64,000 nucleotides of DNA, from positions 54,196,250 to 54,260,249 of the forward strand of contig CM049318.1 of NCBI GenBank assembly GCA_026874595.1. Direction: 5' to 3'. Every line of letters begins with the position of its first letter. Within the stretch, counting starts at the first letter, position 1. Shown piece by piece: positions 24,837-58,860 of the stretch. This stretch comes from Sipunculus nudus. Its lineage: Eukaryota; Annelida; Sipuncula; Golfingiida; Sipunculidae. The position numbers were made by a program, and so were the translations under genes. The notes beneath the pieces were generated by a model that saw only the letters and a list, made by a program, of their open reading frames with translations, made no database searches and had not been told where the DNA came from.

Positions 24837-24890
24837 ATGGACCGGTACGGACTGACCCTGCTGGTGGTGATTTTGTGCTACATACCTCAG
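24837..24890 (+). CDS. Signal-peptide first exon, probably exon 1 of the DSL-EGF-C1q gene
   Basis: Codes MDRYGLTLLVVILCYIPQ: a short N-terminus with Asp/Arg, then a hydrophobic core, typical of a cleaved secretory signal. The donor cag|gttagt leaves phase 0. The next exon recognised on this strand (41892) needs an upstream exon ending with two bases of a codon. Exon 1 therefore cannot splice to it directly, and at least one exon is missing. Assignment to that gene rests on strand, order and the need for a signal peptide. Alternatively it belongs to a different, unrecognised gene. Confidence 0.5.
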
Positions 24891-31150: not shown

Positions 31151-32560
31151 CTAGTAACTGTTACTAGGTTCAATTAGATCATTGTCCAGCAAATAATGAA
31201 TCTTATCCTGTAAATACTTTTGCTTTTCTGGATTCAGTCTATATGGATGTTGCATGACTGCGCTTGCCTCGCCAACATCGACGTCTTGGCACAACATGTT
31301 AGTTCGCGTTGGAATGTCACTAAATAAATGTTCATAATTCCGCGGCAGGTTCTTGAGGTCTTGTTGTTTTTGTGCGGTAAGGTGTGACAGTTTGGCATGC
31401 AGGTTGTTAAGCACGTCTGAGTTTTTTAATGGTACTGTACCACACTTAATTTCCACATCACACTTACAATCAGTATCTACTTTAACTGGGTCAGGGTCAG
31501 TGTTTACACAATTTACAGCAGTAACAGTATGTACAACATCTGATGTGCTATTTCTGTCATAATATGGTTTCAACATGTTAACATGGCACAGTTGTTTCTT
31601 CTTACGTCTATCTGGTGTCAACAGTATGTAATTTAAATCACTGACTTTCTTGTCAACGATAAAAGGACCAAAATACCTAGCTTGGAGAGGTCTTCCAGGG
31701 ATGGGAAGTAAGTCAAGGACTTTTTCACCAGGCTCAAACGTCCTATTTAGAGTGTGCTTGTCATACTTTGTTTTCATTTTACTTTGTGCAGATTTTAGAA
31801 TTTGACTTTGCAATCTCACAAGCATTGTGTAGTTTAGTGCGAAAGTCTGAGACATACTGCAGTAAACTAAGAGAATTAGGATTTTCACACAAGAGTTTTT
31901 CTTTAAGCAGTTTCAATGGACCTCGAACTGAGTGTCCAAAAACTAGTTCAAATGGACTGAACCAAGGACTCTTGAAAGGATTCAACAATAGATGGATTCC
32001 TTCATCCCAGTCTTTCTGTGTGTCATAGCAATAAGTCCTGATCATGTTTTTTAATGTCTGGTGAAAACACTCGAGGGCGCCCTGACTTTCAGGATGGTAT
32101 GGCGAAAAGCTGTACTGTTTTATACTTAGCTCAAGTATAACTTGTTGGAATAAGCCAGACATAAAATTAGACCCTTGGTCAGACTGGACGGATTTTGGTA
32201 ATCCAAAAGTTGTAAGAAACTCGGTCAGAGCTTTGACAACACTTTTGGTATTAATTTTGCGCAATGGTATTGCCTCAGGGAACTTGGTAGATGTGCACAT
32301 AATTGTCAGCAAGTATTCATGTCCAGATTTTGTTTTGGGCAGTGGTCCAACATAATCAACAATAATCCTACTGAATGGTTCCTCGAAAGCAGGAATAGGC
32401 CTAAGTGGGGCCTAGGAGGATTCTGATTGGGCTTGCCTACCATCTGGCATATATGGCATGATTTACAATATTGTACAACATCTTTCCTGAGGTTAGGCCA
32501 ATAGAAGTGTGTACTAATTTTTGGAAAGTTTTATTTATACCTAAATGGCCAATTTCCTGA
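31151..32560 (-). pseudogene. Integrase remnant running into the start of RT
   Basis: A zinc-binding HHCC module is encoded at about 32560-32440 ('GHLG', 'HFYWPNLRKDVV', 'CKSCHIC') with a frame change. The catalytic core follows: the first Asp in VDYVGP (~32350), the second in SDQGSNF and the Glu in GALECFHQ (frame 32312-31779). The frame 31888-31151 holds the C-terminal 'ARYFGPFIV' and 'LCHVNMLKPYY' region. It then continues without a stop into 'HPYRLNP' and 'LLDNDLIEPSNS', the N-terminal edge of RT. That unbroken passage is the direct evidence for integrase-first order. Confidence 0.85.
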
Positions 32561-39620: not shown

Positions 39621-41841
39621 TAGAGCGCCGTTTTTCCGAAAGCGTCGGGGGACAAGCTTTTTGTTCGTAAAAACGAACATTCCGAAATGCGGACAAGTGT
39701 CTAGCGGCTAGTTAGTACGAAGTTAATGATTAAGTTATTGTCATTTTACCCGAGGAACACGGTGTTTCTTTCGATATTCGTAATTGACGACCTGGACTTT
39801 GGATTATGCCCAATATTGGATTATTGCTGAGCATAATTGGCAAAGATCAGTCTAACCTGCTTTAAGGAAATGAGCGTGCTCTTTTTTTCATCAAATTCAC
39901 TGGAGGGAAAGGTCAAATGACATCGCCAAGGAACACGGTGTTTCAAATCGATCTACGTAACTGAAGACCGGTACATATAAAAGCTGCTCAAGCACAAACG
40001 TTTAATAAATTATAGCTCACCAATGCTCATGCGAGTAAACTGCTCAGTTATTTGGCATGACATCCTGTCACCAGCCGACGAACTACGCCTGCTTGAGTAC
40101 AAACGAGATGTGGTTGATAACACACAAGTGCTCTGGGATACACTGCTCAGTCGCTTGCTAGGGGTACAGGGGGCCGAGCGTTGCGCGTCCCATCCTCCAT
40201 TCTGCATTGTGTCGTGCATTAGAAGTGTCTTAAACTTTTGACCAAGAACCCACAAACAAGCTTGCTCAGGTCACATGTAAGATGTTGTTAAATTATGTCT
40301 CATTAACTTATGTCTCATATTGTGTTATCTTATTAAAATTTGGAAGAATAATCGATAAATTTCAGTTGTCACCTACTGATGGAATAGACTTCAGTAATAA
40401 ACAAAATACCTACTGTATTAATATTATGCTAATCTGAATTAATCACATTTTGTAGGTATGTCGTTGTTCTGGCCGACTTCAAGTCAAAATGATTACATAC
40501 ACCCTCAAAAAGCCGGGTGAACTTTAAGACGGCCGATGCTGCAAGGATGACGCTTTGCCAAGTTGTGCGCAGGACAGCTGCTCTTATAAGTTCCAGGTCT
40601 GTCTAAAGATTACGAGAAGGTAGGAAGCATATATCATACTTCCACTAAAGGATGTAATTCACCTGTGTCTGTTGTACGCTTGTTCGTATGCAGATCAATT
40701 AAAATGAAAATAAATATGACGCGTATCCGGAAAAGGGGATTTCCAATAGGTTGTTTTACCTTGATGACCATATATGCTTTGTTGAGTTTTCTTCTAGTTT
40801 ACGTAATTTTTTTTTTATGAACAAGAGGACTTATGTATATCATACAGTACTTAATTGAAAGAGAATATTGAAACGCACACTCTGGTAAAAGTAAATTCGA
40901 TTATGTTTAAAACTTCTTATACCCATCTACGGTTTTAGCTGATATTCATCTTAGTGTCGTTTTTTCCATGTAAATTTTAGCTATTAGTAAAGACCCATGC
41001 GGTCATTAGATATATTTGTTTCCATATTTAGTATATATATATAAATCTTATGGATATACAACTGGACTGTCAAATAAGTCACGTATCCTCATGTTGTACT
41101 CTTGCTGTTATGTCATTATTATTTGCTTTATCTCATGTTTTAATTTGTAGCAAGACCTCGTTGAAAACATCACTTGCTAAATGAGCTATTCTGTTGAAAT
41201 ATTTTGAAATAAATAAATAAAGCAGATTTAGAAGACGCAGGTTAGGTGATGCAGTTTAGGTGACGCAGTTAATATGACGTAGGTAAGGTGACGCAGTTTA
41301 GATGACGTAGGTTGGGAGACGCAGTTTAGATGACGTAGGTTGGGTGACGCAGTTTAGATGACGTAGGTTGGGTGACGCAGTTTAGATGACTTAGTTTAGG
41401 TGACGCAGTTAAGATGACGTAGGTTAAGCGACGCAGAATCAGGTTCGTGATTCATACATTACTACCAGGTCGTCGGGATGATTAAAAAAACATATTTAAT
41501 CAAACAGGATTAAATTATAGTTTGATCCGAACACCGATTATCCGAAAAATCGTTTATGCGTAATTGAAAAATGAAAATCTAATTTTTGATCAATGAAAAT
41601 TAAATATTCAACCCTATATTGAATTCAGATTTTCCATGGCCAATAAGCAATAATTAAAATGTATTTTACATGATAGCTGTTGCCAACGTTTATATTGGAA
41701 TTGCTTCATTTATTCATGTCTGTCAATCCCTGTTCTTCTCCGGTGCTCGGCTGCAGGTTTCTGAATCGTGTGGAATCGTTTATTCGAACGATCGTTCATG
41801 AGAACTAAAACCCTGTCCTCCGGATAAACGAAACTCTACTG
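39618..41841. mobile_element. pogo/Tigger-like TIR element, non-autonomous
   Basis: It starts 'cagtagagcgccgtttttcc' and ends 'ggataaacgaaactctactg', with TA on each side. The ends therefore form a CAGTAGAG...CTCTACTG inverted repeat with further weak pairing inward. 'ggaacacggtgtttc' is duplicated internally (~39754 and ~39931). A 28 bp tandem array lies at 41226-41440. No transposase was recognised. Its right end is 50 bp from the MNNL exon acceptor. Confidence 0.65.
41226..41440. repeat. 28 bp minisatellite of GACGCAG/GACGTAGG units
   Basis: Units of the type 'gatgacgtaggttgggtgac' followed by 'gcagttta' repeat about seven times with small changes, and 'gacg' recurs every ~14 bp. Confidence 0.85.
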
Positions 41842-41891: not shown

Positions 41892-42003
41892 AGGAACTAA
41901 TTGTTCAACCTCTGGTGTGGCTGGTTATTCCCCAAACATCATCTTTGGGCCTCTTATCGGGAAAAGTGATAACCCAGTCTCAGTGACGTTTGCAACATGG
42001 AGC
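41892..42003 (+). CDS. Exon: MNNL domain, middle/C-terminal part
   Basis: The acceptor ttttttatag is followed by one base completing a codon, then GTNCSTSGVAGYSP and continuing to NPVSVTFATWS; donor agc|gtaagt, phase 0. The pattern of a Cys, Gly-rich turn, N-P and F-x-TW matches the later MNNL region of Delta/Jagged proteins, where NP-x4-F-x-FTWPG is usual. The next exon continues the match. Similarity is modest for this exon alone; phase and position raise confidence. An overlapping - strand frame (42169-41954) is treated as a shadow. Confidence 0.65.
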
Positions 42004-42265
42004 GTAAGTCTGCATTTTCCCAAGGATATGACACGTTCATAATTTTCCACTGGGAGACGAGTTCATTTTCATTCCAAATACGACGGATATCTGGATCTAA
42101 AATGTTAAACTCTTCAAGATTTAAGGGAATATTTGGCCGAAAGACACCCATTAAGGACATACTTGACATCGTGCCAAATAGTTCAAGACCTCAAACGGGC
42201 ATTTCTGAGGCATGGCCACATGGATGTTCCGTGACAACAACAATTACACTTTGAATATAAGGTCG

Positions 42266-42314
<49 letters not shown>

Positions 42315-45001
42315 AAAAAGAAAGAAAGACTATGTCCTTTTTTGAAGTGAGTACTTTAAACTTGATTAGGAGTAATCCGTGACTGTTCAAATAATGTTTT
42401 ATTTAAATCAATTCATTCGATTTTTGTAAACACTCGCATATTCTGAAAGGGACCTAATGCTTTCCTACACGATAATGTTATATGGACATTGTAATGCACT
42501 GCTTTAATGCAGGATATTAAAAAAAAAGTTTAATACCTCTTGTATTCTGTTTATCTGTAAATAAGTAGCAGAAATAAGATGTGAAAAGAATGCAAATGAA
42601 TTAATTATAATTTATCGTTTTTTAGTTCAGCTGACTGAAAGTTATCTGAGATTAAGTAATCGCTTTTTGTGAGTCGTCTTTCCGTCCATCCATCTGTCCG
42701 TTAACAAGGCACCAATAGTAACCAGAAACTGCTAAATGATAACCCCGGGAGTTCAATAATAAATCTCCTTAGATGCCTAAATTTAAGTCACTGCTAAATA
42801 TATTTCCTCTGAGTTCTGGGGCATGTTTCTACTCCCAAAAAAGATATAAAATTTGTTACAAAAGCTCTAGTTTTTGAACAAGTAATGTTTTGATTGCCAT
42901 GATTCATTCTATGGATATGTATATTGAACATGCAAGGGTGAACAGTTTCTTCAGTTCGCTGTAACCTATTTTAAGGCTTATAAATGAACAAAAAGCATGA
43001 ATTTCAGTTAGCAGATTGAAAGTCATTTTATCCATCGTTCAAGGTTCCTTAAAAAAAATTTTTAATAAGATATTTTAATTACTAGAAATCTGCATACCCA
43101 TGGATACATGCAACCGCCATGTTAGCATAAGTTTCAAAAAACGTTTGAAGGTGTTTGTTGGTCACCGTCACTCCGAGGTATTGGCCCGCTCGACCGTGAA
43201 CCTAATAGGTACCCGGCCGCACTGATCAGACGGGAACTTATGTATCATTCTCTTAATTTTTGGGTCATATTCTTAGGTTCATTCGTGCATAAGTGACCGT
43301 ACATTTTATGAATATTCCTTTATGAGGCTCCAGAATCCAATTGTTACAATTGTAATAATAGGTAATTGTAATAATTGTTACAATTGTAATAATAGGTACC
43401 CGGCCGCACTGATCAGATGAATATTCCTTTATGAGGCTCCAGAATCCAATTGTTACAATTGTAATAATAGGTAATTGTAATAATTGTTACTATTGTAATA
43501 ATAGGTACCCGGCCGCACTGATCAGACGGGAACTTATGTATCATTCTCTTAATTTTTGGGTCATATTCTTAGGTTCATTCGTGCTTAAGTGACCGTACAT
43601 TTTATGAATATTCCTTTATGAGGCTCCAGAATCCAATTGTTACAATTGTAATAATAGGTAATTGTAATAATTGTTACAATTGTAATAATAGGTACCCGGC
43701 CGCACTGATCAGATGAATATTCCTTTATGAGGCTCCAGAATCCAATTGTTACAATTGTAATAATAGGTAATTGTAATAATTGTTACAATTGTAATAATAG
43801 GTACCCGGCCGCACTGATCAGACGGGAACTTATGTATCATTCTCTTAATTTTTGGGTCATATTCTTAGGTTCATTCGTGCAAAAGTGACCGTACATTTTA
43901 TGAATATTCCTTTATGAGGCTCCAGAATCCAAAGAAGCAGTTGCAGCAACAACAAAATCTAATTGGATCAATTATTCGATGCATTGTTACCGCTCTGATG
44001 ATTAGTTCACAAGATCGCGGTATCACTGTCAAAATTTCCTGATGATATAATCAAGTATTATTACTCTCTTTACAGAGGAGGAATAGCTTTTGGGTGGCCG
44101 TTCTTAACGGAACTAATATGATCGATGACAGTCCTTCACTGAAAGTCAGAAGGAGCAACCCGAGTAAAGAATGGCTGCCTATCAGTCTGTCTTCACTACG
44201 GTCCAGGTAACCATGGTGATAACATACAAGAGACGTGTGCAAAGAAACATTAAATAAAAACTTTAACACTAAAGCTATTTTAAAGATATCTACTTAGGAA
44301 ATACCGGACGGAATGATTCATATAGAGGAAGGGATTTTAATATGAGGGCTGCATAGATGCACGGGCATATATAGTAAGAGGAAATGCATTAAAAATAAAA
44401 TTAAGCCGTTTGACAAGTCGTTTCGCGATCGTTTGTTTTAGATACAAAAATAGTCTTCCATTGTCTGGACGTCTTTCACGCTAATAATCACATTTCAAAC
44501 AATCATAAAAAATAATGTATTGCCCTATATTGTCTCTTAGAAAACAGACTGATATTTTTCCAACAACCGCAACAAATCCAGACTTTTTCATTTTCTAAAT
44601 ATGAATATTACAACAGTCATTGAGGAAGCGCCTGTTGCCTCTATCATAATCTCGCATTATTAAACTATTTTTATAAATGAGATATTTTTTATATACTTCC
44701 AAAAACGGATCCAGGGGGGGCAGGGGGTACTGATCCCCTTTTCAGGCGACGCAAACTGTTTTTAAGGATTTCAGACCCATTTTTGCATTCTGGACGCCCT
44801 TTCCATGATTTGGGGAACTTTCTTTAGGTGTTATCATTGATCCCTGGATCCGCCCCTGGGTTTGGGCAGGTTCAACCTCAAATGTCTTATATCTGTATCC
44901 CATGAAACGCACGGTAATAGCATTTTTCCCGATATTTTGGAAACAGAACATGTGCAGCTCTAATTCTTGCTGGGTTATATATATATATATATATATATAT
45001 A

Positions 45002-45044
<43 letters not shown>

Positions 45045-48000
45045 CATTTCGATTACCTTGCAGCGTGAAACTTGAATACAGAGTTGAGTGCAACCGGGAC
45101 TTTTACGGGCCGTACTGTGACAGACACTGCATCGTGAATGAACTCACAGAACATAACTTTGAATGCAACCCCAATAGTGGACACAAACAATGCAAGCAAG
45201 GTAAGCAGAAAGATTACACCAATAGTAACATATACAGAACAACTTGAAAAATTATGGTACTATACTATACATAATTCATTTTTACTGCATGTCACTATAT
45301 TATGAATTCTTGTTTACAACACAAGTGATGGAGGACTCGAGCCCGGACATGGATTCTAATCAGGACTCGAGTCCACATTTTTTTAACTCGGACTTGGATT
45401 CAAATTCGAAAGTAAAGACTTGAGAAATAAGGCCGAGTCTATATCGAGTTCAGAAGAAGGAAAGCTCTGTCACATAAATATAAACTTATTTATTTTACAT
45501 GGATTGTACAAATAGTTATTATAACTAATCGAGGCACTCTCCATGGCTCCGGTGATGGCGTTCGGTAGTCTGCAGAGGTGGAGAAAACCGGAGTACCCGG
45601 GGAAAACCACCGGCCTTGGACGGGCAACTACAACCCACTCTCATAGCCACGCCGAGGATCGAACCCGGGTCGCCAGCGGAGATAGCCAAGCGTTTTAACA
45701 CTCAGCTGTCCAGGCCCCTAAATTTATATATATACATATTATAAAGCTATTATTATAAAGCAAATTACTAACAAAATATTTTACAAAAGACTATTTTCTA
45801 AGCTTTAGGGCGCTAAAATTTAATTAAACATCTGAGTAGAAAGCATGTGAAACTAACATTAAAATAGTTATGGTAATCTAAAATTTCCATTTTGAAATTC
45901 TTTTCATAAGGTAGTCTTGATTCGACTCGGACTTGGATTCGGGTTCATAATGATGCCGATTTGAACAAGGTGGACATTTACTCGAACCTCAAGGACTCCG
46001 ACTTAGACTCGGACTTGCGTAGTGTAGTCTCGGACATGCACTTGGACTCGAATAGTGTATACTCGACTACATCACTGCACAGAACGCAACCTTCTGGGAA
46101 AACTAGCTGCCTCCTTGAGGTCTGAAGGGAAGTATTTAAGCAAATTTTTCAGATAGCTCTGTTCCATGCGTCTTCCCGGTCACTCTATCCTGTGGCAGTC
46201 TGCAACGTCTGTTTATATGGGGCCAAATGGGTCAAATGACCATTGGAAAACGACTACCAAGCTTTCACTACTCACTTCTGAAGGCTCTAGGGTGTTTGTA
46301 TCAGTCCAAGTGCAACCAACGCGGATTTAAAAAAAAATGACTCCTCCCATATGGTTTCTTTCTGTTTGTCTACTGGGAAGGGTTGATGCCGTCCTGGCTG
46401 CGTGTTTATGGTTGCAAGAGCTGTATATATGACAATATTACGTCACTAAGACGTGACAAATGTCGGGGGCGTATGACGTCACATTTACTGAAGTCAACAG
46501 GTGCAATTGCTACACCTGCTCTCCAGTTACGAAATTGTGAAATTTTCCCTTATCTTTTGAAGGATAGGGTAAACAAGTTCCATGATAAAAGTTATACTGA
46601 TGAGAATATGATGATTTTGTATTTAGGATGGGCTGGCATTGACTGTAATTTCAACATCCAGGAATGTGTGTCTGATCCATGTGTGAACGGCGGAAGGTGT
46701 GAGGACCTCATCAACGAGTACAGGTGCATTTGTCCGGCCGGCTACACAGGTATGTCAGTTAGTACAGCGAATCGACTATGTAAGACATTTTATAGTTTAA
46801 AACCAGGATCGCGAGTGTATGCCTGATGAAAACATAATGAAAATATGGTAAATTATGGAGAAGTAGTTACTCTATCATTAGCGCATGGGTAAGTGAATCA
46901 GACCAGGAAGACCAAAGGGTATATCAAATTACAGAAACTATAGGGCAGAGTAAATCGTGATCGTAAAGATATTGTTCTTCTTATGTACGACGATGTACGA
47001 ATTAAAGACCATGAGGGTAAGGTTAATCCGGAGGATGAGGGTATGAACAAGTACTGCTATTGAATTATAAAAGAATAACTCCAGGGTGATCATCAAACAA
47101 CCAGGCGGATTTGTGAAGAAGGCAGGAGTTATATCATTCGTTCACACAAGCAAAGCATGTAAAATCAAGTAACCTCTACCCACATTTTTACTTTGTTCAA
47201 ATAACCTCCGTCATATGTTATATATATGTCGGTGTGAAAGAATTTAACTATTTTTTTTTCTTTTCAGGTATACACTGTGAAACGCTCAAAGATCTTTGCC
47301 GAGAAAGCCCTTGTCAAAACGGCGGCACCTGTAGACAGATAGAAAACACATATACGTGCACCTGCCTCGACGGTTACAATGGGACAAACTGTGAAAACGA
47401 TATGAATGAATGTTTGAGCCAACCTTGCCGACATGGTACTTGCACTGACTTGGTAAACGGTTTCAGTTGTACCTGCGCATCCGGTTACACGGGTATGACA
47501 TGTGACACAGAGATTAACTTCTGTTCTTCTGACCCCTGCAGCCATGGAGCCACGTGCCTGACGTTAGTTGGAGGCTACCAGTGTCAATGTCCTCCAGGTT
47601 TCAACGGTAGCCATTGTGAAGATGAAATAAACTGGTGCGCTAGCAGTCCTTGTACTGGGGACGCCACATGTATATCAAACGTGACTAGTTATGCATGTTT
47701 GTGTCCTGATGGAAGAACTGGAGTCACCTGTGAGCAATATTTGCCGTTGTGTAGCGTAAATCCATGTCAGAATGGTGGAAACTGCTTCCAGACAGAGGAC
47801 AAAGTTATCTGCTCTTGTGTTCATGGTTTTACGGGTCCAAAGTGCGAAATTGATGTAGATGATTGTGAAAACGGGCCATGCGTAAACGGTACATGTGAAG
47901 ACCTGGTCGGTAATTACAAATGTCACTGCGGTGAAGGGTTCACTGGGAGAAACTGTGAGAGTCGAATTTTGTCCTGCCCTGAGGTCAAATGTAATTGTCC

Positions 48001-49790
48001 CGTTGGATTCAATGGTACCCGTTGTGAGAATAAGGTAAACAGAATACTTCTTTTGAGTATAAACGCAACGAACAACAACCGCATGATTTCTTGCGGAATC
48101 CACAACTGTGATACAATCACAGTTGTAGGAATGACGTGTACAATTAGGCCTTGTTATGGTGAAACGGTAAAAGGCACCAAGAACCATAAAAGTGCTAAAT
48201 ATACACATCAAAATACATCTGTTCGTGTCTTTGGTAGTGAATGAGTCTTTCTGGCAACATTTCAACGTTCCTACATTAATATATTAATGAAACATTATCT
48301 CCTACAGAACCTTGTAAGCCCGCCGTGATTTAAACGTAAACCTGTTGAACTTGTGGGCGGATGTTGAACGACTGGTACTCTGCACACACCCCTATTAACG
48401 CCCGCTTTTTCCAGTTCCAACAGCAATCATATCAGAGCGGGGTCCAAGTCTAAATTCCATTGCAAAGGACATTGGGGCACTTCAAATTCCATGGCCGCTT
48501 CTTCTCTATGTAAACATTAGGGTTCTTGGTAGATTTAAGGATATGTAGGGCATTTAAGCATCACATTGATGCTTCGACCTTTCAGAAGTTTCATAAAACA
48601 TCCAAAGACAGCGCAAAGGTAATTATTTTATGTTTACACGAAAAAGTCACTTATAAAATTCCAAAGGGGTCTCCTATTAGGAACCTAACAAGGCGTTATC
48701 ATAACTGTCACTCCCAAGACGTAGTTGAAGTGCAGCAGATATAATCGTAATAAAGCGTCTTGGGACGAGACAACCGCATGATGTACATTGATATACTGAC
48801 ACCTTTCAGGGACACGGCACGTGGAGTGACGTAATTGTCCTCTGTGACGTAACGACTCTCACGATTTAAACTTATTTAAATTTTTTTAATGATTTACATT
48901 TTGAGGCCGAACATCCCCCGCCATCTTCGTTAGTGTTTGCATTTTGGAAGGGGGGGGGGGGGGGGGGGGGGCAGCGAAACAATATAACATTTTCGTTAAA
49001 TATGAAGTGAACAGTTGGTTTTCTGGAATTTACTCAATGAAATAAATTTTCTTTTTCAACAGGATGTACAGACACGATGTCAGGATTTGGGAAAGCGGCC
49101 TGTACCAGGTAGGCCTATAGCATCTCGTCCTCTGTTCCCAGAATGAACGTAATCGGACATATGTTTGTCTTAATAATGAAAACAAGTTGTTATATCACTT
49201 TCAATTATGAAACAAAGGACCCTTTTGGAATAGAGTTATATGTTGTATTTGTAACATAGATATATTTTTAGAAGTCCTGAACATATCAATAAAGCGAATT
49301 AGCGAAAAATAAAAGTAAATAAGTAAACGATGATGAAGAACATTAAGAACGTTTATCCCACCAGGTTATTATTAACTGCATCTTATTAACGCACATTATC
49401 TGTTTTTCAGTAGTGGCCTTTCATGTCTCATACGAAGGAAAGCCCATCCAGTACGGAAATCTTCCTATACGAGTACCGTACAATACAGTGAAGCTCAACC
49501 AAGGAAATGGGTATAAGCAATCCATCCATGTATTTATCGCTCCGAGGGCTGGATTCTATATGTTCCAGGTGACTGGACTGAGCGGCAAACAGAGGGGGTG
49601 CCTACGCATGAAGAAAAATGCGGCCTTGGAAGGAATCCGCTATGGTCACGGAACATGGGAAACCATGGCCATGACTTTATTCATGATGCTGAATAAAGGG
49701 GACTCTGTTAAAGTTTTAACATGTCAGAATGTCCCTGGGAGTCTGTGTCCCTACTCCTTTAACACATTCAGTGGGTTCCTGATTCACTAA
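41892..49790 (+). CDS. Gene for a secreted MNNL-DSL-EGF-C1q protein (seven exons, 564 residues seen)
   Basis: Exons 41892-42003, 44076-44206, 45064-45200, 46627-46749, 47268-48034, 49063-49108 and 49411-49790 all have AG/GT borders and fit together in phase to one frame ending in TAA. Numbering from the first complete codon: MNNL C-terminal part ~1-80, DSL ~82-133, EGF 1-7 ~140-400, half EGF 404-420, linker 424-439, C1q 440-564. MNNL plus DSL defines the Delta/Jagged Notch-ligand family. Those proteins normally end with a membrane segment and short tail, and here C1q takes that place. A secreted, possibly trimeric, ligand or antagonist is inferred. In immunity-rich molluscs a recognition role for C1q is also possible. 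The first half of MNNL is not found. Confidence 0.85.
42004..44075. other. Intron with (GA)n, a repeat-element fragment and a satellite block
   Basis: (GA)n lies at 42265-42310. 42623-42725 on the - strand matches the end of the 11380-13766 element ('ttagttcagctgactg' and the Ttccgtcc-rich part with 'ccgttaac'), so a fragment of that family without the palindromic repeats is present, perhaps to ~43130. The satellite is listed separately. Confidence 0.5.
43205..43935. repeat. Higher-order tandem repeat, ~296 bp period
   Basis: The phrase 'ggtacccggccgcactgatc' occurs at about 43209, 43396, 43505, 43691 and 43801. The spacing alternates between ~187 and ~109 bp, so two related sub-units alternate to give a ~296 bp period. 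The short sub-unit carries inverted 'ttgttacaattgtaataata' blocks. Copies are nearly identical, indicating recent amplification. Confidence 0.9.
44076..44206 (+). CDS. Exon: end of MNNL and linker to DSL
   Basis: Acceptor tctttacag; reads RRNSFWVAVLNGTNM, then SLKVRRSNPSKEWLPISL; donor ccag|gtaacc with two bases left over. In Delta/Jagged proteins this place holds the 'F-x-L-I-V-E-A' strand followed by a variable loop and a W before the DSL domain. Here FWVAVLNG and EWLP fit that layout. An N-glycosylation sequon (NGT) is visible. Confidence 0.7.
44703..44870. mobile_element. Small hAT-like MITE in intron
   Basis: The inverted ends 'aaacggatccaggggggg' and 'ccctggatccgcccctgg' enclose ~150 bp, with the same end type as 19725-20735 and 17842-18038. 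A (TA)n tract follows at 44977-45042, just before the DSL exon. Confidence 0.55.
45064..45200 (+). CDS. Exon: DSL domain
   Basis: Acceptor ccttgcag, donor caag|gtaagc. It codes VKLEYRVECNRDFYGPYC, then DRHC and onward to HKQCKQG. Cysteine spacing is C-x8-C-x3-C-x11-C-x8-C, and the sixth Cys comes x8 later in the next exon (GWAGIDC): the DSL pattern of Delta, Serrate/Jagged and LAG-2. The aromatic 'FYG' after the first Cys is conserved. The loop that in canonical ligands reads R-x-R-D-D-x-F-G-H and contacts Notch is replaced by IVNELTEHN. Notch binding is therefore uncertain even though the fold is clear. Confidence 0.93.
45345..46070. repeat. Imperfect GGACTCGGACTTGG-type repeat split by a SINE
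   Basis: Phrases like 'ggactcgag', 'actcggacttgga' and 'gactcggacttg' recur at 45336-45440 and 45905-46055. They flank the SINE at 45488-45718. A low-copy simple repeat of about 12-18 bp, probably one block before interruption. Confidence 0.6.
45488..45718 (-). repeat. tRNA-derived SINE, family A copy 3
   Basis: The reverse complement carries 'gggttcgatcctcggcgtgg' (B box), 'ggtggttttccccgggtact' and the common tail. It lies in the intron between the DSL exon and the first EGF exon. Confidence 0.8.
46627..46749 (+). CDS. Exon: DSL sixth cysteine and EGF repeat 1
   Basis: Acceptor gtatttag, donor acag|gtatgt; phase 1 at both ends, as usual for shuffled EGF exons. GWAGIDC supplies the last DSL cysteine. 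EGF 1 follows, with CVSDPC, VNGGRC and ICPAGYTG, and its last Cys lies in the next exon. The open frame extends upstream of the acceptor without meaning. Confidence 0.92.
47268..48034 (+). CDS. Exon: EGF repeats 2-7 and a half EGF
   Basis: Acceptor cttttcag, donor ataag|gtaaac. It completes EGF 1 (GIHC) and codes six full EGF modules starting LCRESPC, NECLSQPC, NFCSSDPC, NWCASSPC, LCSVNPC and DDCENGPC. Those with NDMNEC, EDEINWC and DVDDC have calcium-binding-type starts. A final truncated module keeps four cysteines (SCPEVKCNCPVGFNGTRC). Six EGFs in one exon, without the usual one-exon-one-module layout, suggests intron loss or a retained ancestral fusion. The antisense open frames are shadows. 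Confidence 0.95.
48035..49062. other. Intron; holds a ~390 bp repeat and a G-run
   Basis: The reading frame stays open for 70 codons past the donor to a stop at 48242-48244, so intron retention would give a C1q-less form with an unrelated tail. A stem-forming pair 'acaactgtgat' / 'atcacagttgt' lies at 48103-48128. A G-run lies at 48950-48971. Confidence 0.5.
48372..48770 (+). repeat. ~390 bp dispersed repeat (copy 2), intact
   Basis: Uninterrupted counterpart of 19558-19724 + 20736-20975. It starts around 'ggtactctgcacacacccct' and ends 'aataaagcgtcttgggacga'. The AATAAA near the end could act as a poly(A) signal, but the repeat's nature is unknown. Confidence 0.7.
49063..49108 (+). CDS. 46-nt microexon linking EGF array to C1q
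   Basis: The acceptor tttcaacag and donor ccag|gtaggc fit exactly: 46 nt enter in phase 0 and leave one base, and the next exon supplies two. It codes DVQTRCQDLGKRPVP, a short linker with one cysteine. The phase agreement is the main evidence. The other frames do not join the flanking exons. Confidence 0.75.
49411..49790 (+). CDS. Last exon: C1q domain
   Basis: The acceptor ctgtttttcag is followed by V-VAFHVSYEGKPI. C1q hallmarks are seen in order: VAF start, LNQGNGY, FIAPRAGFYMFQV, the LNKGDSVKV strand and a terminal FSGFLI, then H and TAA. Length (~125 residues) is normal for C1q, a beta-sandwich that forms trimers and binds diverse ligands outside the cell. There is no collagen stretch before it, as in many mollusc C1q-domain proteins. 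The protein ends here, so it has no membrane anchor. Confidence 0.95.
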
Positions 49791-50175
49791 AAAATCACAG
49801 GAATTATCGATACCGACCCATGCCTTACTCAAAGATAAAATGTAGAATACAGTTAACCGTTAGCATCCTTACATCAAATAATCTAGAATAATATACACCT
49901 CCATATTCCTTTGTATGCTAAGAACAAGTGAAATATTCTATGTTGTTTTCTAACATTTCGGCCAGTCTAAGATTCTTGCGGTTATTTATGAAATACACTA
50001 AGACGTCAAAAAACTTAATGCAATTGCTAATTTGACATGACAGTAATAATTCTCTGCAGAATATTTTCATATTCAAGTATATAGACAGACAGGCAAACCG
50101 AATTCCCCTTCTATGCTTATGTTTATGTTAGAATTAGTCAACTGATGTATCTTAATAAAGTGCTTTGCCTCTCTA
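49791..50175 (+). other. 3' UTR with poly(A) signal
   Basis: AATAAA occurs at 50154-50159, followed by a T/G-rich stretch ('tgtgtgtgtgtgc' near 50204). A ~390 nt 3' UTR is plausible. Confidence 0.55.
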
Positions 50176-51480
50176 TAACATGAGTATGTGAACTTATCCT
50201 TTGATGTGTGTGTGTGCATCTCTTAGTATTGCACAGTTATCGATGGCTTAATATCTAAATGTAATTACCGCATTTAGTGAATAGTTTGAAACTTGACCCT
50301 ATCAGCCCATTACGTATTATGGCTTGTATTAAATCAAGATTAATTATTTGACCTTTTATAAATGTAAGTCCAATGTGCATAGGTTATCCGGTTTTTTTTA
50401 TATACCCATGAGTTGATATTGTGGATGGGGTTAGGGGCTATAATGGTCGCCAATCGTAATCTAAACGTGTCTAACCATGACATCAGGTGGTAAATCAGAC
50501 GGACCAGTTTTTGACAAAAGAACTAAATATGAAGGCCATCAAATGCATGCTCTCATCAACAGGACCTAGTGACCCTTAAACTTCTGGTCACATGTTTGTA
50601 AACACGGGTAGGTGTATCGTGTTTATTGACATTTTGTTGATAAACAAATCTATACAATCATCACAGGGCCTTGTAAAGTACTTTTCATAGCAGGAATTAA
50701 CAAACTTCATTAATGTGTGCCAAGAGCAAGCAAAACACCCCATAAATATTCAGAATTAGTAATTTAAATGTCTGGTTTAAACTACTTTAATTTAATATCA
50801 TATTAGATTTATTCAAGAGAAGATAAATAGAAGAGGATGAAATATGCATCCCAATCCATCAAGATATTAACCCATAAGTTTACATAAAATAATGACTGAA
50901 AAGGTGTCGTTTACAACACTTTTCATCTCATGATTAGTTTAGACACAAGGGATTTAAAATAGAGCATTATATACAAGTAAATCCGTCTACCTGCTTCTAT
51001 GCGCCTGAAACTGGATATCATAGGGTACTATTTGTTCCCTGCTTATTCTCTTCAACGGCGCTTTTTTTGTAGGTTTTATTTTAAAAAAATAAACACATTG
51101 TGAAGTATACAGTTACGTTTTGTAGACACAGTATCGAAAGTACATTGTAGACACGATGTTGGTATTATTTTCTAATTGTTCCCTGTGTCTGTCACGACGG
51201 TCAGACGTGGACATCTTTCTTGAGTGACAGACCACCTTAAATCGGGATAGACTCAGGACAAACACGGGACCACCTTTGTTTTTAAGTACCGGCATCAATG
51301 GTCATGACTCTTTTATATGAACATTTATTTAAAAATGTGATCAAGTTGTCAGTTATTGGAACCATTTTTCAAATATCAATTCATCAGAAAATAACTTTTT
51401 TTTTGCAATATTTATTCCATTAATATTTCAAAATATAGACAGCATAATTTAACAACAATATGACATTGTTTATTTGTAAA
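50176..51480. other. No gene recognised
   Basis: Intergenic AT-rich DNA. The short - strand frame at 51298-51113 has no recognised motif. Confidence 0.4.
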
Positions 51481-52196: not shown

Positions 52197-52910
52197 AGAT
52201 AAAGCACTGAATAGAGGTCCTCTAATCTGCACTTTGACCCATTGCAGATGAACAGAGGTCCCCTTATCTGCACTTTGACCCATTGCAGATGAATAGAGGT
52301 CCCCCAGTCTGCACTTTGACCCATTGCAGATGAAGAGAGGTCCACTACTCTGCACTTTGACCCATTGCAGATGAATAGGGGTCGCCTAATCTGCACTTTC
52401 ACCCCTTGCAGATGAAAAGAGATCCCCTTATCTGCTCTTTAACCAATTAAAGATGAATAGAGGTCCCTGAATCTGCACATTTACCCATTGCAGATGAATA
52501 GTCCCCTAATCTGCACTTTTACCTATTGAAGATGAACGGGGTCCCCTAATCTGCACTTTTACCCATTGCAGATGAATAGAGGGCCCCCAGTCTGCACTTT
52601 GACCCATTGCAGATGAATAGAGGTCCCCTACTCTGCACTTTGACCCATTAAAGATGAATAGAGGTCCCTTAATCTGCACATTTACCCATTGCAGATGAAT
52701 AGAGGTCCCCTTATCTGCACTTTTACCCATTGCAGATAGATAAAGGTCCCCTAATTTGCAGTTTTTTTCCATTGCAGATAGATAGAGGTCCCCTAATCTG
52801 CACTTTTACCCTTTGTAGATGAATAGAGGTCCCCTAATCTGCACTTTTACCTATTGAAGATGAATAGAGGTCCCCTAATTTGCAGTTTTACCCATTGCAG
52901 ATGTTACTGT
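52197..52910. repeat. 41 bp satellite, about 17 copies
   Basis: The unit reads 'gcagatgaatagaggtcccc' then 'taatctgcactttgacccat' plus one t. Each unit carries 'atctgca' and 'tgcagat', which can pair as a 7 bp stem. Since 41 is not a multiple of 3, the repetitive - strand frames change phase and are not genes. Confidence 0.92.
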
Positions 52911-54732: not shown

Positions 54733-57060
54733 GGGTAGAACAGAACAGAACAGAAATTTATTCAAAAAAGCGTCCCAAACTTGGGAATGGAGTGATTACA
54801 AGCATGTCATGTTTGTATTGTAGAAAAGATGGCGCTGTGTACTGACTCATACAGATACAGCGATAGCATGGAGTGCAGAAGTGGTTCTAGGCTGTACATA
54901 AGTGCAGTGTTATAAGTACAGTATACATACATACAAGTATATATTTAACTACAGGAATATGATTAATCATGATTGTGAAGAATGGTATATTGGTTTTACT
55001 AGGGTGTGCTACTGTGCCTAGCAGTGAATAATGAATACTGATCCAGATAACTAAGTACAAGGACAATCAAGTGTAGGTGTATTTACGGATAGCTAAGGGA
55101 TATAAAAGAGATATGAACAAGGTTTTAGTATGGAGAAAGGGAACTTGATAAGCACCAAATGCTAAAGCCCTCTGGGTATTCATTTACAAAAAATATATTA
55201 AACCACTGTGGGACCAATTTAATTATCTAAACAAGTGCTACAATACAAGGTCAACCTAAAGTTGTCATGGTAAAGACTAGAGACCAGAGAATGCATTAAA
55301 CATGTGCAAACAACATTTATCGTATTTACATAGATAAATAACACAGAAGAAGAAAACTCACTGAATAAACAATGTGTGAAACTCTAAAGTTTCCCAATTA
55401 TTATCTTACTCAGTCTGCTGTCACTGTTCATAAGGTACATGTACCTCATTTTTAATACATTTGGCTGAGCATAAATGTCTTTAGGTAGGATTTTGTGTCT
55501 AGCTTGTGTAAAATCTCTGCAGTAAAACAGGTAGATGAATTCATCACCAATATAATTTTCTGGGAACAACTTGCAACATTGAGAATTTATGTTTTCATTT
55601 TCCTTATGCCAGTAAGCAACTTGCAATCTACATTTTTTTTTCTCAGTTTACACAGGCTGATCGCAAGACATTTAGGTGGGCTGGTAAGGTAGTTTTCTAA
55701 ATCAAATTGGAATTTACAAATTTTGAAGTCAGAGCAGAAAACAGAGTTATCAACTGTTGAATTCCACTCCGGATAGTAGATATCCATCTGCCTGAAGGCA
55801 CTTGGGTTATGCCACAAGTTGGACATGCCATGAGTATGCAGGGTCTGTTTTATGTGCATAATCCATTGTCTCTCCAAGCTAAGTAGTGTATTAATTTATA
55901 TATGGTGTTGCTATACTTTCTTTCGCGACTCTCAATAGTTCTATAATAGTAATTTTTAAAATCTTAAATGTACAGTTTTCGATAAGCTCTAATAATTTCT
56001 TGTTATATCCCCATATTTCACATCCGTATATTAATATAGACAGTATTAGTGAGTCAAATAATTTAAGCATCACTTCTAGGGACAGATGTCTCTTTTTACC
56101 TTTGCACTGTAGTGCGAACATGGCTTGATTTGCCTTCTCTATCTGAATGTTTACCGCAACCTTCAAATTGCGATTAAAATTTATTTTCAGTCCAAGGTGG
56201 CAGTAACTGTCTTGAACCTCCACGCAGTTGTTATTGTATGTGAATTATGGAATGTTTCTTATTTTACCCTCGGGGAAGATAACAATTTTGGTTTTTGAAA
56301 CATTAACATCTAGGTTCCCGTACCTGCAGTATTGGTACGTACTGTCAAGGGCTATCGGTAGGTCTTCTTCACTTTCTGACAGGATTATTATATCATCAGC
56401 GTAGAACATTATGTACATTTTCAGATTGATTTCTATGTCGTCATCAGACAAATTATCTCTAATCATTTATTGAGGTCATTAAGAACATTTTCTGCTAAGC
56501 TGCTTTCAAGTTCTGCTAGGAATATCAAAACAAAAGGATAGGTGATATATTTTCACCCTGGCGTACGCCAAAGTCACATGTAAAAAGCTCTGACATATAA
56601 ATCACAATTCTTACACACGATTTAGCATTTCAGATGTATGTTGCATACTCTGAATACTTTGACATAAATGCCATTTGCAAGGATTTTCGGCACAGGGTAT
56701 TCCTACACACTGAATCAAATGCTTTCTTGTAGTTAACGAATGCATATTATACAGCTCAAAGTAAATATATAGTCTATTGTTAAATATTTACTTCTAAAGC
56801 CTGTATTAAGCCGACTGACCAGCTACCGAGAATGACTCCTGAGTCCAAGATAGGGTTGAATAGTTTGGTTTAGAAGTTATGTAATTTATTCCTCCCAAAT
56901 TTTAGATATTCATTCAATATCCTATCCATGCTACAAACTCTGTTGTTTTTCATTTTTGTTTTATTTCTACAACAATATCTGCCTCAGTGAATAGAGAGTT
57001 GATTTCTGAGTTGAGCTCAGTAATATTACTGTCTGAGAAACTATATCTATCATGAGCATT
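54733..57060 (-). pseudogene. Decayed LINE (non-LTR retrotransposon), RT to 3' tail
   Basis: On the - strand the order is LFN-x-ILDSG (~56.85 kb), VNYKKAFDSVCRNTL (~56.75), GVRQGENISP (~56.56), FYADDIIIL (56389-56406), YLGL/HLGLKINFNR (~56.2), KLFDSLILSILIYGCEIWG (~56.0), then GDEFIYLFYC (~55.53), typical of LINE RT and post-RT regions. Stops and frame changes interrupt it. It ends at 54738 with 'aataaatttctgttctgttc'. The 5' part is missing. The clade is not assigned, perhaps CR1- or RTE-like. Confidence 0.8.
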
Positions 57061-57650: not shown

Positions 57651-58860
57651 ACTCCATGTACATTGTACGTCATCGTCCCTCTTGGTCGGGCATCCAAAGC
57701 ACTGACATTGCCCCCTTAAAACGTCATTTTCACTATCTGGCACGGTAACATCATCATCGCCGTCTCTGAGCAACAAAATCGTCACTGCAAATCAATATCT
57801 TCATCATCGCCTCTCAATGACAGCACTGCCATTGTCGGTATTCATTAGTTTCGTCTGTCATCGAAAGAACTGCTAAGTCCTATTCTCAGTCATCACCGTT
57901 GCTGCCCGTAATCATCCTCCTCATTGTCACTCTCTGTCGTCAACTCTGTTATCGCTGTCAATATCACTGTCACCGTTTGTCATCAACATCACTGTCACTG
58001 TCTATGATAAACATTACCGTCCGTCACTGACATCAATGCCACTGTCCGTTATAAACATAACTTTCTCACGCCATCTTTAAAATCACTGTCACTATCCACC
58101 ATCAACAGCACTGTCACTGTCCGTCTTCAACATTGTCACCAACGTCAGTCATCGACACCACTGTCACACTCAGTCATCAACATCACTGTATTGTCAGTCA
58201 TCTACATCACTTTAAGTGTCCGTAATCGACATTACTGCCACAGTACATCATCAACATTGTCACAGTTGTCTGTCATCGAAATCACAGTTGCTGTTTGTTA
58301 TCAAAATCAAAATCACTGTCCGTCACTGAAAGCACTGTCACTGCCAGTCACCAACATCACTGTCATTGTCCGTCATCGATATCACTGTCACTGTTTTTAT
58401 CAAAATCAAAATCACTGTTCATCATCAACGTTGTCATCACCGTCAGTCATCGACATCACTGTCACTCTCCTTCCTCGACGTCTCTGTCACTGTCTGACAT
58501 CAACATCGTTGTCATTGTCCGTCATCAACATCACTGTCACTGTCAGACATCAACATTACTGTCACTGTTTTTCATCAAAATCACTGTATGTCACTGATAG
58601 CGCTGTTTCTGTCAGTCATCAAGATCACCGTCACTGTCCGTCATCAACAGCACTGTCACTTTACGTCAGAAACATCACTGTCACTGTGTGTAATCGACAC
58701 CACTCTCACTGTCCGTCTCCAGCATTGTCACGACAGTCTGCCATCGACATCAAGGTATTGTCCGTCGACATCAACATCACGGTCACTTTGTGTCATCGAC
58801 ACCACTGTCAGTCTCCGTCATCAACATTGTCACCACCGTTTGTCATTGACATATTAGTAC
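57651..58860. repeat. Minisatellite of CACTGTCACTGTCCGTCATC units
   Basis: Units of ~24 bp and their multiples ('catcaacatcactgtcactg', 'tccgtcat') run for over 1 kb with changes. Three overlapping Ser/His/Thr-rich + strand frames up to 236 residues are generated by the repeat. No start context or domain supports a gene. Confidence 0.85.

Follow-up and report, generated by a model that had tools for sequence, protein, structure and literature searches.

A 64,000-nucleotide stretch of the Sipunculus nudus genome (assembly GCA_026874595.1, contig CM049318.1, positions 54,196,250 to 54,260,249; hereafter the window, in whose coordinates and on whose plus strand features are given unless stated otherwise) contains a locus in which exons of the Notch-ligand type lead, in one reading frame, into exons of a C1q gene. 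We refer to this DSL-EGF-C1q locus as copy B and to a neighbouring DSL-EGF gene, on the minus strand of contig C13, as copy A. In our view copy B is likely to be a chimeric gene, built when an inverted duplicate of the DSL-EGF gene was joined to C1q exons, and present here as a disabled copy or a null allele. We envision a scenario whereby duplication in inverted orientation produced a copy of the neighbouring gene that lacked the 3' end but comprised signal peptide, MNNL, DSL and seven EGF modules. This copy came to be followed by the final two exons of a C1q gene whose own signal-peptide exon is not present here. Splicing from a cryptic donor within the EGF modules to the linker exon of the C1q gene would then have yielded a single frame, and a TAA codon in the first MNNL exon would later have disabled the copy, or would mark a null allele. 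The predicted product would be secreted, with an EGF stalk and a C1q head that probably trimerises, and would serve adhesion or recognition rather than act as a canonical Notch ligand.

What supports a continuous gene? An earlier note, made from the window sequence, had described seven phase-compatible exons that join MNNL, DSL, EGF and C1q in one frame up to a TAA, and this chain withstands closer inspection: splice-site motifs and a single common frame are found for 41892-42003, 44076-44206, 45064-45200, 46627-46749, 47268-48034, 49063-49108 and 49411-49790, with the terminal TAA directly after FSGFLIH. The gene starts further upstream than had been thought, because two coding exons, 24837-24890 and 40456-40619, were overlooked. 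The former is the signal-peptide exon (MDRYGLTLLVVILCYIPQ); it ends at the donor CAG|GTTAGT in phase 0, the phase needed by the first MNNL exon, differs from its copy A counterpart by one amino acid, and lies in a block that is conserved and collinear between the arms of the inverted duplication. The latter is the first exon of the C2-like MNNL domain, which continues in a second (41892-42003) and a third exon (44076-44206, starting in phase 0), both recognised by exon comparison with copy A. The DSL exon (45064-45200) is followed by a first EGF exon (46627-46749, assigned by Pfam and by comparison with copy A) and by a long EGF exon (47268-48034) that holds the rest of EGF1, EGF2 to EGF7 and the remnant of an eighth EGF, which has four cysteines because 45 nt present in copy A are deleted. 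A linker exon derived from a C1q gene (DVQTRCQDLGKRPVP; 49063-49108, phase 0 to 1) and the C1q exon, including the stop codon (49411-49790), complete the gene. The predicted spliced product has 638 codons including the final stop. Judged from the sequence, this chain is not a product of chance, because exon boundaries and phases agree with those of copy A as far as homology extends into the EGF exon, and the 46-nt linker recurs ahead of the C1q exon in three C1q genes of contig C8.

The proposed domain order, MNNL-DSL-EGF-C1q, was correct. A Pfam search of the spliced product, which the earlier note had put forward as a check, returned DSL (PF01414, 28.3 bits against a curated cut-off of 24.2), a C-terminal C1q domain (PF00386, 30.5 bits against 23.7) and seven EGF stretches above their curated cut-offs. 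MNNL (PF07657) went unlisted in the 637-aa copy B product and in a longer copy A sequence, and was obtained for copy B only from an isolated 181-aa fragment with X at the TAA (28.7 bits against 22.5, covering 157 of 157 profile positions); an isolated copy A fragment reached 36.4 bits, and the 181-aa copy A fragment gave no listing. We take the absence from the 637-aa listing to reflect HMMER filtering of cysteine-rich sequence. In the PDB, the best sequence match of the MNNL-DSL part is Jagged-1 (E 5e-9), and the C1q part matches cerebellin-1 chains. The copy B frame ends in the C1q exon and not in the transmembrane anchor and cytoplasmic tail of DSL ligands; a hydrophobicity scan of 48035-49062, between the EGF and linker exons, detected no transmembrane-like stretch. 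The description of a C1q domain in place of the membrane anchor fits a truncating fusion of a duplicate and not an established class of ligands: among at least 16 DSL places, copy B is the sole one with a C1q hit immediately 3' in the same orientation. A transmembrane anchor is not strictly required of a DSL ligand, as the secreted DSL-1 of C. elegans illustrates (PMC3415683, accessible part).

The 5' part of copy B belongs to a large inverted duplication with two head-to-head DSL-EGF genes. Its one arm extends upstream in separate blocks and spans window positions 21473-48043; the other, at C13 54.170-54.207 Mb (about 54.17-54.21 Mb), lies immediately upstream of the window and carries copy A on the minus strand. 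The two copies share exons and phases and have 91.2% amino-acid identity over 478 codons (dS 0.148, dN 0.041), with the DSL domain of copy A 85% identical. A genome search with the MNNL-DSL protein found eight places, namely four exon pieces each of copies A and B. Unlike copy B, copy A has no stop at the corresponding MNNL place, and its main EGF exon lies within a 1787-aa open frame (L031:4392-9755, minus strand) that is largely built of EGF modules, arranged as a higher-order repeat with a period of about 453 nt, and leads into a Ser/Thr-rich stretch. Downstream of the window (L034:507-6027, plus strand) lies copy C, a third DSL-EGF gene, which includes a long Ser/Thr-rich stretch. No C1q match occurred in the roughly 44 kb fetched 3' of copy A or in roughly 25 kb 3' of copy C, and a simple scan of both copies gave no clear transmembrane segment.

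The 3' part points to a different source. The C1q protein matches at least 94 places in the genome, itself included, and the nearest other matches, at 80% and 79% identity, are on contig C8. A segment of the window from 48992 to 50464, with an AATAAA at 50154, aligns at 73% to a C8 C1q gene at 24.405 Mb. Because this homology starts inside the first intron of the C8 gene, the C8-type signal-peptide exon is absent from the window locus. The C8 genes are of the bivalve type of C1q-domain proteins and resemble copy B in their linker and C1q exons, an arrangement found in three loci (L020, L023 and L025). They differ from it in that L020 has its own signal-peptide exon, with a predicted splice to the 46-nt linker (phase 0 to 1) and then to the C1q exon, and in that MNNL, DSL and EGF find no match in 17-29 kb upstream of four C8 C1q loci; the same holds for 17 kb upstream of one C9 locus.

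How might the two parts have been joined? Copies A and B are homologous as far as 48043. Shortly before this point, at 48034, lies the donor AAG|GTAAAC, which in copy A still belongs to the coding sequence; it has phase 0, as the linker exon requires. From 48044 to 48991 follows a junction stretch that matches none of the fetched loci, apart from one short piece (48789-48862) also present in L031 and L029. We also weighed a splice that would bypass the linker and lead from the EGF exon directly to the C1q exon, and dropped it, as the linker exon is common to the C8 genes. Within the junction stretch, 48128-48714 is bounded by 29-nt inverted arms (72%) and is possibly a small mobile element.

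The substitution pattern suggests that copy B probably remained coding over much of the period after the duplication, because dN/dS between the copies is low and no frameshift has accumulated. Over 478 codons, dN/dS is 0.277 (bootstrap 0.17-0.43), when about 0.5 or more would be expected had copy B been neutral throughout; it is 0.28 for MNNL (0.10-0.63) and 0.24 for EGF (0.14-0.41). The coding part of copy B contains no frameshift, against about 5.9 expected under neutrality since the duplication (P 0.003), and one stop, against 4.7 (P 0.046). In the introns, 16.8% of aligned sites differ between the copies, with 42 short non-triplet gaps in 5098 aligned bases. On the branch leading to the C1q exon, 14 synonymous and 19 nonsynonymous unique changes depart from neutrality (P 0.012), and pairwise dN/dS of this exon is 0.35 with L020 (0.18-0.65) and 0.41 with L025.

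The one stop is an in-frame TAA at 40525-40527, codon 42 of the predicted product, and interrupts the frame from the signal peptide inside MNNL; copy A has a serine codon in its place. Because of this TAA in the first MNNL exon, the reference allele most likely makes no full-length protein. We read copy B as a recently disabled chimeric gene, or as a null allele in the sequenced individual, and suggest that the TAA arose recently, is polymorphic, is skipped or reflects an error.

Several points weigh against this account of a constrained chimera that was later disabled. The TAA differs from the copy A codon at two adjacent bases, and an assembly error is possible. In the DSL exon dN/dS is 1.29 (0.20-2.18), a value that comes from only seven differences and lends no support to constraint there, and for the C1q exon the comparison with L023 gives 0.59 with an interval (0.36-1.03) that reaches beyond 1. 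Synonymous divergence between the copies is uneven along the EGF exons, with dS of 0.06 in the first half and 0.27 in the second, a pattern compatible with gene conversion from copy A; this could keep the copy B frame clean without selection. Constraint on the DSL-EGF part may also predate the fusion, and the order of events is unsettled, as the split of the C1q exon from C8 (dS 0.32) is older than that of copies A and B (dS 0.148). The junction from 48034 to 49063, finally, is a predicted splice.

The Notch-binding face bears on what such a protein could do. Five Jagged-1 residues, F199, R201, R203, D205 and F207, have been mapped to this face (PMC3415683). In our own alignment placement, none of the five is kept in copy B or in copy A. 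At nine other DSL places of the genome, four are kept at L001, three at L002, two at L003 and L006, and one at L004, L005, L007, L008 and copy C. Canonical Notch binding by copy B is unlikely for this reason, and the idea of a soluble Notch modulator, raised in the earlier note, is weakened by the lost contact residues and by the stop in MNNL. By analogy with the C1q family, as portrayed in the accessible part of PMC8878817, a secreted protein might instead act in recognition or adhesion through its C1q head. Further DSL exon clusters lie elsewhere in the genome (G000) at C4 62.88 Mb, C5 12.9 and 25.4 Mb, and C17 53.5 Mb; the six DSL exons examined on C4 and C5 keep GHY and have no phenylalanine at the F207 position.

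Could the gene still be at work? The TAA might be avoided by an exon-skipping isoform, or be an assembly error or a minor allele, and a secreted DSL-EGF-C1q protein might then function in recognition or adhesion. The signal-peptide exon is intact and ends in phase 0, and the third MNNL exon, at 44076, starts in phase 0 as well, so that a splice between the two would keep the frame while skipping the first two MNNL exons; the low dN/dS between the copies, the clean frame, the open linker and C1q exons and the non-neutral C1q branch all fit such a gene. The TAA lies, though, in the sole first MNNL exon detected, and expression is only putative, for which reasons we regard a working gene as possible but doubtful. 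We hold equally tentatively that animals free of the stop, or transcripts without the two leading MNNL exons, may produce a young chimeric immune or adhesion protein of the form signal peptide-(partial MNNL)-DSL-EGF7-C1q. Born of inverted duplication and C1q exon capture, such a protein would be secreted, C1q-oligomerised and EGF-bearing.

Alternatively, the window may hold two units that are phase-compatible by chance: a dead, truncated DSL-EGF duplicate, and behind it a separate gene for a short secreted C1q protein with a first exon of its own. The break in homology at 48044-48991 would suit this arrangement, as would the related C8 gene L020, which has a signal-peptide exon of its own and looks as if it encoded a short secreted protein. 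A replacement first exon is nevertheless hard to find. When the window was searched with the C8 signal peptide, nothing significant emerged (best E 2). A relaxed scan, sensitive enough to pick up the known exon at 24837, turned up a single candidate for 48035-49062; it sits at 48083, is not signal-peptide-like and is about at background. The same scan found none in 45201-46626 or 46751-47267. A stricter scan of 44001-49062 also found none, a result of little weight as it missed the known exon too. We therefore consider two separate units unlikely. The suggestion of a canonical Notch ligand or antagonist made soluble through C1q can draw on the MNNL-DSL order and on Jagged-1 as the best match in the PDB, but the absence of all five contact-face residues, in a genome where L001 and L002 have kept most of them, together with the stop in MNNL, makes it highly improbable. 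On balance, a chimera of an inverted DSL-EGF duplicate and C1q exons, disabled or in a null state, remains the reading that we favour.

How unusual is the combination? The DSL places comprise 13 from the genome search plus copies A, B and C; both this list and the C1q list are lower bounds. Among these at least 16 places, copy B is the only one followed immediately, in the same orientation, by a C1q hit. For each of the 13 places from the genome search, the closest of the at least 94 C1q hits is 1.4 Mb or more away on the contig, or the contig has no such hit. Copy B shares with Delta, Serrate and Jagged ligands the signal peptide, the MNNL C2-like domain, DSL and the EGF array, and departs from them in its lost Notch-contact residues, its C1q end and the stop in MNNL. 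Multimerin and other EGF-C1q proteins have EGF followed by a C-terminal C1q domain; to our knowledge, they have no MNNL-DSL part. Literature searches that paired C1q with DSL, Delta or Notch ligand, and which covered few subscription journals, retrieved no DSL-C1q protein. Protein database searches returned 32 candidates for the C1q part, none at E 0.001, and 87 for the MNNL-DSL part, none a match; phage records gave no match either. C1q genes are very numerous in bivalves, and one alignment, counting its seeds, holds 1,589 sequences from two species (PMC5499747); the word DSL is absent from the accessible part of that article. The expanded bivalve genes are described as encoding a signal peptide and C1q, or these with an added coiled coil (PMC8878817, accessible part).

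Other features of the window include a near-identical 296-nt tandem repeat (43203-43932) in the intron that separates the second MNNL exon from the third, tandem arrays of 41-nt units (52208-52903) and 25-nt units (57958-58827), and, on the minus strand at 31151-32411 and 55891-56244, open frames that by eye resemble fragments of retroelement integrase and reverse transcriptase.

The locus illustrates how a C1q head can reach a different stalk, by inverted duplication, truncation within an EGF array, absence of the signal-peptide exon of the C1q gene and a donor recruited from coding sequence. If it is expressed in some animals, it would provide a DSL-C1q protein. If it is not, it would counsel caution, because lists of domains drawn from exons alone can overlook a stop that lies in an undetected exon.

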